Assembly: GCA_028871175.1 (NCBI GenBank)
Contig: JAGWNU010000012.1
Location: 1 to 38,275, forward strand
Reading direction: 5' to 3'
DNA: 38,275 bases
Source of the DNA: Burkholderiaceae bacterium
GTDB taxonomy: Bacteria > Pseudomonadota > Gammaproteobacteria > Burkholderiales > Burkholderiaceae
Shown: positions 34,807 to 38,275 of the stretch, one piece after another
Position numbering within the stretch: the stretch's first letter is position 1
Layout: each line of letters opens with the position of its first letter
Notes under the pieces: generated by a model
The model's database searches: none
The model's input: only the letters and a program-made list of their open reading frames with translations
Told to the model about the DNA's origin: nothing
Program-made: the position numbers and the translations under genes

Positions 34807-36321
34807 ATGCGTACCGCTCGATCCCTCCATGCCTTGCGTTTGCTGTGTGTTGCCGCCGTTGTGGCGGTGGGAGGGGCACTGGTGCCGGCCCACGCGCAGA
34901 ATCCCGTTGGTGGCGGGGCCGCGGGTACTTACGGTCTGCCCGACTTCGCCGATCTGGTGGAGAAGGTCAGTCCTGCCGTCGTCAATATTCGCACCACCGA
35001 AAAGGTGCGCATGCGGAACGGCCCGAGCGATGACGACATGGCCGAGTTCTTTCGCCGGTTCTTTGGTGTGCCCATGCCGGGCGTGCCGGGGCAGGGGCAG
35101 GGGCAGAAGCGGCGCAACGCACCACCCCAACAGGAAGAGGAGCAGAGCCGCGGCGTCGGCTCCGGATTCATCATTTCGGGCGACGGTTATATCCTGACCA
35201 ACGCACACGTGGTCGAGGGTGCCGAGACGATCTACGTTACGCTGCTCGACAAGCGTGAATTCAAGGCCAAGGTCATTGGCCTGGACAAGCGGACCGACGT
35301 CGCGCTGGTCAAAGTGGACGCGTCAGCGCTGCCAAGCCTGAAGCTCGGCGATTCTGACAGGGTTCGCGTGGGCGAGTGGGTTCTCGCCATTGGATCGCCG
35401 TTCGGGCTGGATAACACGGTCACCGCCGGCATCGTGTCTGCCAAGGGGCGGGATACCGGTGACTACCTGCCGTTCATCCAGTCCGATGTGGCGGTCAATC
35501 CGGGCAACTCTGGCGGCCCGCTGATCAACCTGCGTGGCGAGGTGATCGGGATCAACAACCAGATCTACAGCCAGAGCGGCGGTTACATGGGCATTTCGTT
35601 TTCGATCCCGATCGATGAGGCGATGCGTGTGGCTGAGCAGCTCAAGACGCAAGGCCGGGTCACGCGCGGCCGCATTGGTGTGGCGATTGACAATGTGCCG
35701 AAGGACGCCGCCGAGTCGCTCGGCCTGGGCCGTGCGCGCGGGGCATATGTGGGTAACGTCGAATCGGGCGGTCCTGCCGACAAGGCAGGCATTGAGGCGG
35801 GTGACATCGTCCTGAAGTTCAATGGCCGAGACATCGAAAAGGCAGGCGATCTGCAGCGTCAGGTTGGCGAATCCAAGCCGGGCACGCGTGCAACCGTGCA
35901 AGTCTGGCGCAAGGGTACGACGCGCGATCTGGCGGTGACCGTGGCAGAGCTGCCGTCCGATGCCAAGGTTGCGCAGCGCAGTAAGGGGCCGCAGCCAGAC
36001 AGCAGCCAGCAAGGTCCGGGCAAGCCGAATGCGCTGGGTCTGGTGGTGGCGGATCTGTCTGAAGGCGCCCAGCGCGAGTTCAAAACAAAGTCGGGTGTCG
36101 AGGTGCTGGTGGCCGAAGGGCCGGCCGCACGCGTGGGTATCCGCCCCGGCGACCTGATCCTGCGGGTAGGCGATACCGATATCGCGAGCGCCAAGCAGTT
36201 CAACGAAGTGGTCGGCCGGCTTGACAAGAATCGCATGGTGGCGGTGTTTGTCCGCAGGGGCGATGCCACCCAGGTGGTGACGATGCGCCCTAGCACGGCG
36301 CGTTCGGGTGGCGGGCAGTGA
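34807..36321 (+). CDS. mucD: Periplasmic serine protease MucD/DegP
   Basis: A 504-residue HtrA-family protease and chaperone that removes misfolded envelope proteins. A signal peptide ends after AHA at residue 30. The trypsin-like domain has the triad H134 (LTNAHVVEGAE), D164 (RTDVALVKVD) and S235 (NPGNSGGPLI). Two PDZ domains follow (~280-390 and ~410-500). A Gly/Gln-rich linker (PGVPGQGQGQKRR) lies in the LA loop. I chose the ATG at 34807 with GGGGAG upstream; an in-frame ATG at 34783 adds only MFLFRGAF. Its stop overlaps the next GTG by 4 bases. It acts downstream of the sigma-E regulon, and the rpoE-rseA-rseB-mucD order lacks mucC. Confidence 0.95.
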   Translation: MRTARSLHALRLLCVAAVVAVGGALVPAHAQNPVGGGAAGTYGLPDFADLVEKVSPAVVNIRTTEKVRMRNGPSDDDMAEFFRRFFGVPMPGVPGQGQGQKRRNAPPQQEEEQSRGVGSGFIISGDGYILTNAHVVEGAETIYVTLLDKREFKAKVIGLDKRTDVALVKVDASALPSLKLGDSDRVRVGEWVLAIGSPFGLDNTVTAGIVSAKGRDTGDYLPFIQSDVAVNPGNSGGPLINLRGEVIGINNQIYSQSGGYMGISFSIPIDEAMRVAEQLKTQGRVTRGRIGVAIDNVPKDAAESLGLGRARGAYVGNVESGGPADKAGIEAGDIVLKFNGRDIEKAGDLQRQVGESKPGTRATVQVWRKGTTRDLAVTVAELPSDAKVAQRSKGPQPDSSQQGPGKPNALGLVVADLSEGAQREFKTKSGVEVLVAEGPAARVGIRPGDLILRVGDTDIASAKQFNEVVGRLDKNRMVAVFVRRGDATQVVTMRPSTARSGGGQ

Positions 36322-36593
36322 TCGAACTGACGCTGTACGGTCGCTCTTACTGCCACCTGTGCGATGACATGAAACTCGCGCTGGAGCCACTCCGGCATGG
36401 CTTTCGTTTTGTCTTGCATGAGGTGGATGTCGACAGCGATCCTGCGCTCGAGGACCGCTTTGGCGAGCTGGTGCCGGTGCTGATGACGGGCGCGCCACAC
36501 ATGTCTGTTGATGGAGCCATTGAGTTGTGTCACTACTTCCTTGATGTGGCCGTCGTGCGGAAATGGCTTGCGGCGCAGACGCCCAGCCTTTGA
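36318..36593 (+). CDS. Glutaredoxin-like thiol-disulfide protein (DUF836)
   Basis: A 91-residue thioredoxin-fold protein with a C12-x2-C15 motif (GRSYCHLCDDM) near the N-terminus and VPVLMTGAPH as the cis-proline strand. This pattern fits the glutaredoxin-2-like/DUF836 family. The start is a GTG at 36318 that overlaps the mucD stop (GTGA), so translation is coupled. Small thioredoxin-fold genes at this position between mucD and lepA are common in the group. Substrate unknown. Confidence 0.87.
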   Translation: MIELTLYGRSYCHLCDDMKLALEPLRHGFRFVLHEVDVDSDPALEDRFGELVPVLMTGAPHMSVDGAIELCHYFLDVAVVRKWLAAQTPSL

Positions 36594-36640
36594 CGTGACA
36601 CTGCCGCAAAAAGAGGCGCAGGAAGCCCCCTGAAATCCGG

Positions 36641-36646
36641 TAAAAT
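36641..36646 (+). promoter_or_regulatory. Candidate -10 element before lepA
   Basis: TAAAAT in CCGGTAAAATCGCC lies about 165 bases before the lepA ATG, in an otherwise gene-free stretch of 215 bases (36594-36808). No -35 is obvious. Confidence 0.3.
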
Positions 36647-36808
36647 CGCCTGTTAGCGCCGATTTTTGCGTCGCATGATTTTTGTGCGTGACCTCGGCAT
36701 CGACTCCAATACCTCCCGCCGGCGCCGTCCACCGCGCGCCGGCCATGCCGGAGCCGCTTCGCGTCCCGGCAGACGCGCCCGGGATGGGCGCGCTTTTCGA
36801 CGCATTCG

Positions 36809-38275
36809 ATGGACAATATCCGCAATTTTTCGATCATCGCGCACATCGACCACGGCAAATCGACGCTCGCCGACCGCATGCTGGAGCTCACCGGCACGAT
36901 CGAGCCGCGGCGCATGCAGAGCCAGGTGCTCGATAGGATGGACCTTGAACGCGAACGCGGCATCACCATCAAGATGCAGCCGGTGCGGATGAACTGGAAC
37001 TACAGAGGTGAAACCTATGTATTGAATCTCATCGATACGCCCGGCCATGTCGACTTCGCGTATGAAGTATCCCGCGCGCTCTCTGCCGTCGAAGGCGTCA
37101 TCCTGCTGGTCGACTCGACGCAAGGCGTGGAGGCGCAGACGCTCTCGGTATTGTCGGTCGCGCGCGAGCTCGGCCTTGTGATCATTCCGGTCGTGTCCAA
37201 GATCGACGCGCCGCATGCGCGCGTCGAAGACATCCGCAGCGAGCTTGCGCTCTTGCTCGGTTGCGAGGAAGCCGACGTGCTCGGCGCCTCCGGCAAGACG
37301 GGTGAAGGCGTCGCCGAAGTGCTCGACAGGATCATCGAGCAGGTGCCGCCGCCCCGCGAGCATATGCAAGGCACGCAAGGCCTCATCTTCGACTTCGCGT
37401 ACTCGGATCATCGCGGCGTCATCGTGTATCTGCGCATCTTCGGCGGCAGCATCAAGAAGGGCGATGCGCTGCGCTTCGTCGGCGCGGGAGCCGACTTCAC
37501 CGCGCTTGAGATCGGCGTGCTCACGCCGGACGAATCCCCGCGGGAGAGCCTGACGGCCGGCGAGATCGGCTACATCGTCACGGGCATCAAACGCCCCGGC
37601 ATCGCGCGCGTCGGCGATACGATCACATCGCAGAGGCATCCCGCGCCCGGCCTTGCCGGCTATCGCGCGCCTACTCCCGTCATCTGGGCGAGCGTCTACC
37701 CCGAAAGCCAAGATGATCTGCCGCTTCTGCGCCAGTCGCTCGAGCGATTGCGTCTTTCGGATTCGTCGCTCTCGTACGAAGAAGAGTCTTCGGGCGTCAT
37801 GGGCAAAGGGTTCCGCTGCGGCTTTCTCGGGATGCTTCATATGGAGATCATCACTGAGCGTTTGCGGCGCGAATTCAATATGGATCTTGTCGTCACGATG
37901 CCCACGACCGTCTACGAAGTCACACACATGGACGGCACTATCGAGGAAGTGTATGCGCCAGCGCGTTTTCCTGATGACGGTACGGCAAAGCGCGTGCGCG
38001 AGCTCTGGACCAAGATCGAAGTCATGACGCCGCCGGAGTATCTCGGCGCCGTCTCGCAGCTTCTCCACGATCACGAGGCCAATGTCGGCGATACCGAGAC
38101 GCTGCCCGACGGCAAGATGCAGATCTTGGCGGAAATGCCCCTGCGAGAGCTTATGCGCGGCTTTTTCGACAAGCTCAAAAGTATTTCGAGCGGTTTCGCA
38201 TCCCTTTCATACAAGATTATGGGTCTGCGCGATGCGGATGTCGTGCGGCTCGATATTCTCGTTGCCGAAGAGCTT
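36809..38275 (+). CDS. lepA: Elongation factor 4 (LepA), 3' truncated; non-native body
   Basis: LepA is a ribosome-associated GTPase of the EF-G class involved in translation initiation and back-translocation. The frame is open from ATG 36809 to the window edge: 489 of about 600 codons. The P-loop AHIDHGKS is at 11-18, G3 DTPGH at 76-80, and G4 at 130-133 reads SKID where most LepA proteins have NKID. FRCGFLGMLHMEI marks domain III/IV. Synteny (after grx) is right for native lepA, and residues 1-23 fit. Beyond that the protein is unlike betaproteobacterial LepA: EPRRMQSQVLDRMD and MQPVRMNWN replace SDREMEAQVLDSMD and AQTAAL. Leucine codons change too (about 22 CTC, 13 CTT, 11 CTG, against 21 CTG of 30 in fabF). 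It is LepA; its origin is discussed in the findings. Confidence 0.9.
   Translation, partial: MDNIRNFSIIAHIDHGKSTLADRMLELTGTIEPRRMQSQVLDRMDLERERGITIKMQPVRMNWNYRGETYVLNLIDTPGHVDFAYEVSRALSAVEGVILLVDSTQGVEAQTLSVLSVARELGLVIIPVVSKIDAPHARVEDIRSELALLLGCEEADVLGASGKTGEGVAEVLDRIIEQVPPPREHMQGTQGLIFDFAYSDHRGVIVYLRIFGGSIKKGDALRFVGAGADFTALEIGVLTPDESPRESLTAGEIGYIVTGIKRPGIARVGDTITSQRHPAPGLAGYRAPTPVIWASVYPESQDDLPLLRQSLERLRLSDSSLSYEEESSGVMGKGFRCGFLGMLHMEIITERLRREFNMDLVVTMPTTVYEVTHMDGTIEEVYAPARFPDDGTAKRVRELWTKIEVMTPPEYLGAVSQLLHDHEANVGDTETLPDGKMQILAEMPLRELMRGFFDKLKSISSGFASLSYKIMGLRDADVVRLDILVAEEL

Follow-up and report, generated by a model that had tools for sequence, protein, structure and literature searches.

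Organisation of the lepA region

The window is the whole of contig C35, 38,275 nucleotides long, in a bin of 372 contigs that also holds contig C133 and is rated 90.42% complete and 0.32% contaminated. The host is presumably a betaproteobacterium, in line with the earlier note made from the sequence of the window. A small gene at 36318..36593 (forward strand) is the native upstream neighbour of lepA. It gave no match in NCBIfam at the default threshold, and its name grx (glutaredoxin) is that of the earlier note. The lepA frame at 36809-38275 (forward strand) encodes 489 amino acids and is open at the contig end. Its product scored 607.5 bits against the NCBIfam lepA model (TIGR01393; curated cut-off 533.9), a score obtained by a truncated and probably chimeric frame. 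The LepA C-terminal domain (PF06421) was not listed for this protein, the frame of which is cut at residue 489 by the contig end.

Leucine codons in 36809-38275 numbered 22 CTC, 13 CTT, 11 CTG and 6 TTG of 52, and four AGA/AGG codons were present in the frame; this recount was identical to the counts given in the earlier note. As a yardstick, the lepA on C133 has 32 CTG and 11 CTC among 52 leucine codons. A search of a plasmid collection with the window lepA returned 38 records at 60-80% identity, and the same search with 12000-36800 returned 10 records covering at most 4% of the query; neither gave the host genus, for which the earlier note has Ralstonia. A literature search of titles and abstract openings gave nothing apparently relevant to the lepA locus.

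Native and foreign parts of lepA

The DNA from 36318 to 36879 had an 80-83% match in all 15 congeneric genomes searched. The grx region leads directly into native lepA in 15/15 congeners, with overlapping matched places, and the lepA head and body lie in a single reading frame in each of them when both strands are read. In 60-base windows starting at 36760, 36790 and 36820, C35 was 93-98% identical to two congeners (L130 and L133), and identity to both was down to 55% in the window at 36880. Together with the diagnostic columns described below, this identity marks the lepA start at 36809..36832 (forward strand) as native, that is, of the congener type.

The lepA body at 36880..38275 (forward strand), cut by the contig end, was assigned to the Candidatus Kaiserbacteria type on protein identity and has a GC content of 61%. 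Residues 26-489, searched separately, had two Candidatus Kaiserbacteria records on top, L009 (VGJQ01000011.1) and L010 (JACROD010000013.1), with 86% and 84% protein identity, respectively, over 464 residues. The LepA of four congeners was 45-46% identical to that of the window. For these residues the best 80 of 206 confirmed stretches were kept as relatives, and among them the matches following L009 and L010 were at 79% and lower. The 80 are labelled Patescibacteria-type here; many of their titles read Kaiserbacteria, Paceibacterota, Parcubacteria, Taylorbacteria or Nomurabacteria, and some records are titled only 'bacterium' or 'uncultured bacterium'. In 60-base windows, the identity of C35 to L010 rose from 55% at 36760 to 85% at 36880, and that to L009 was 58% at 36760, 87% at 36820 and 73% at 36880. 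L009 and L010 have their own lepA head and different ORFs upstream, whereas the window lepA has a host-type head with grx and mucD upstream. By protein identity, the donor of the body is Kaiserbacteria-like. The earlier note had described a native head joined to a Parcubacteria-like body, and both parts of that description hold, since the congener match ends at 36879 and what follows is closest to Kaiserbacteria.

The table of diagnostic columns comprised 15/15 congeners and 41 of the best 80 (of 206) Patescibacteria-type loci, the remaining 39 having no usable row. Between 36809 and 36838, the columns listed agree better with the congeners than with the Patescibacteria-type loci. At 36841 the base, a G on both C35 and C133, agrees with 0/15 congeners, and the columns from 36844 to 36877 again favour the congeners (0.93-1.00 vs 0.39-0.61). 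At 36880, 36881, 36884, 36890, 36891, 36896, 36897 and 36899 none of the 15 congeners agrees, against 78-93% of the 41 rows; within this stretch the exceptions are columns 36886, 36888 and 36895, which favour the congeners. In the four-congener alignment, the first mismatch past the word shared with C133 lies at 36868. The best relative of the frame therefore switches abruptly at one point, and the breakpoint is placed by these columns between 36832 and 36880, so that the native lepA head would comprise about 8 to 24 codons.

Insertions in Patescibacteria-type LepA

Two of the Patescibacteria-type loci, L042:5926-8172 (Kaiserbacteria) and L046:5923-8202 (Parcubacteria group), carry an in-frame LepA insertion of roughly 155-165 amino acids between the motifs PVRMLW, which we take to be near switch I, and LIDTPGH. 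Both insertions matched PDDEXK_3 (PF13366), with E values of 5.8e-33 and 1.4e-30, and both lepA frames are uninterrupted by stops. A nuclease-fold sequence thus appears to lie within the translation factor LepA in these two loci, where misassembly is possible too. Nine further loci (L020, L023, L025, L028, L034, L036, L038, L076 and L084) have a lepA lengthened at the same place, the GITI-to-LIDTPGH stretch (both motifs counted) having 36-65 residues vs 26-32 in 69 of the best 80 (of 206). This stretch of Patescibacteria-type LepA seems to tolerate insertions.

Contig C133

A second lepA of the bin was found on contig C133, which is 5,232 bases long. From residue 5 onward its LepA is 96-97% identical to the LepA of 15 congeners, and its DNA from 665 to the end is 87-88% identical to four congener loci. 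The order of ORFs downstream of lepA is colinear with the four congeners up to the contig end; these ORFs are presumably lepB, a DUF4845-like gene, rnc and era. The true host continuation of the lepA locus is therefore present elsewhere in the assembly, and the native gene is neither missing nor away from its native neighbours, as C133 keeps the native downstream genes. LepA matches at E ≤1e-100 numbered one in each of the 15 congeners, and among the 41 genomes searched only the bin of the window had two.

To the left of the P-loop, where the congeners have grx, positions 1-664 of C133 (L129, G000:C133) contain the terminal part of a gene for an aldo/keto reductase (PF00248). This side has a GC content of 73.6% with a third-position GC of 93%, and the lepA start on C133 is also unlike the congener lepA start. 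The left end gave no match to the four congener loci and weak matches in 9/15 congeners, the best being 68% over 287 bases (G013). Of the 41 relatives searched (own genome included), G029, which belongs to the same order, matched at 70% over 552 bases. Against 398 genomes of the host phylum, presumably Pseudomonadota in view of the earlier note, the best DNA match outside the bin was 76% over 547 bases (G416), and a source for the left end was not found in 297 genomes of the order of that best hit. The plasmid collection yielded 153 records, each with less than 80% of the query covered, and five aldo/keto reductase neighbourhoods of 5-6 kb each had no lepA alongside. Judged from its sequence, C133 is itself chimeric within the same P-loop as C35, and its left end apparently derives from a third organism. 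A simple two-way swap is argued against by the absence of the aldo/keto reductase, at E 1e-3, from the best 80 (of 206) Patescibacteria-type loci, several of which have little upstream DNA.

The shared word at the P-loop

The longest exact word between the end of C35 (36300-38275) and C133 is 37 bases long and lies at the junction, in the P-loop codons, at 36831..36867 (forward strand) of the window and 678-714 of C133; the second longest has 21 bases. At the same lepA P-loop codons, 35 bases of the word are unbroken in L033 (titled 'bacterium' only), 32 in L011 (Paceibacterota) and 29 in L045 (Kaiserbacteria). These are the three of the best 80 (of 206) Patescibacteria-type loci with at least 29 unbroken bases; the other 77 have at most 20, and 39 of these have fewer than 11. 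L009 and L010, the closest Kaiserbacteria records, differ from the 37-mer at no fewer than 5 and 7 bases, respectively. In the congeners 26 bases are unbroken in 14/15 and 17 in one, and a search of 398 genomes of the host phylum found a 32-mer from within the word in none of the 397 others. The word is thus uncommon, yet very distant lineages can, to judge from these loci, have it nearly whole. The host may not have the whole word, since the G at 36841 occurs in 0/15 congeners and these hold at most 26 of its bases. The donor is assumed to have its own copy.

Origin of the two-part lepA

The two-part lepA of the window is almost certainly an assembly artefact, a metagenomic misjoin. The earlier note had proposed a misjoin at the conserved P-loop as the simplest explanation, and the finding of the host-type lepA body on C133, a contig chimeric at the same word, supports this. 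The sample would have contained three bacteria, namely the host, a Kaiserbacteria-like one and one of high GC content, whose lepA genes would have a few dozen bases of the GTP-binding P-loop in common, and the assembler would have switched genomes at this shared word. On C35, the host mucD-grx-lepA start would then continue as the Kaiserbacteria-like lepA, and on C133 the aldo/keto reductase and lepA start of the third organism would continue into the host lepA body, lepB, rnc and era. From the two-source make-up of both contigs, their exact common word and the congener gene order, we infer that the word was shared by three organisms in the sample and that the crossing occurred in the assembler, not in the cell.

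An artefact is favoured because the native grx-lepA-lepB locus is cut at one point, with each side continuing as the lepA of another organism, an arrangement that follows directly if an assembler crosses at a shared word, and because a biological event would require two unrelated donors to have delivered DNA to one and the same word without displacing the native genes downstream. The foreign lepA body being open at the contig end also counts for it. On the other side, the open frame would make a plausible LepA, and the word is not a common one, so that a coincidence among three genomes is needed. The differences of L009 and L010 from the word and the 20 bases or fewer held by 77 of the best 80 (of 206) loci also count against an artefact, as does the failure to find a source for the left end of C133, with its weak matches in 9/15 congeners.

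A real inter-phylum event, in which a Kaiserbacteria-type lepA recombined at the native locus via the P-loop and the native lepA survived as a second copy, is very improbable. An open, in-register frame and two lepA genes in the bin are what such an event would leave, and if true it would be an exchange of a translation factor from Patescibacteria to Pseudomonadota. However, the native body still stands with its native neighbours, in the four-congener order to the contig end, and was not moved away. The upstream side of C133 is also foreign, with 73.6% GC vs 61% for the foreign body of the window, so DNA from two different sources would be needed at one word, and two lepA genes at E ≤1e-100 occur in 0/15 congeners. 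The true inter-phylum replacement that the earlier note had held out as an alternative thus finds no support, given the native lepA body and native downstream neighbours on C133. More improbable still is one real large insertion of a mobile element or integrated DNA between C35 and C133 with the lepA start duplicated at its ends, for which the 37-base word could read as a target-site duplication, but on both contigs the word codes for the homologous P-loop within an in-register lepA frame, and a chance element would not carry the lepA of another organism at both ends.

With a misjoin as the preferred reading, caution is needed with this bin (90.42% completeness, 0.32% contamination), two contigs of which each seemingly mix two organisms within one universal gene. 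Searches for transfer or for breaks in codon usage could mistake the window lepA for an inter-phylum replacement, and a lepA tree using this bin could misplace it.

Chimeric contigs between genomes that cross at a shared word are a known kind in metagenome assembly. As in those, the place where two sources meet here is a short word of a highly conserved gene, close to the end of a contig, and what the host gene lacks is found on another contig. What sets the present case apart is that this other half can be seen within the same bin, on a contig that is chimeric in its turn, the partner apparently being a third organism.
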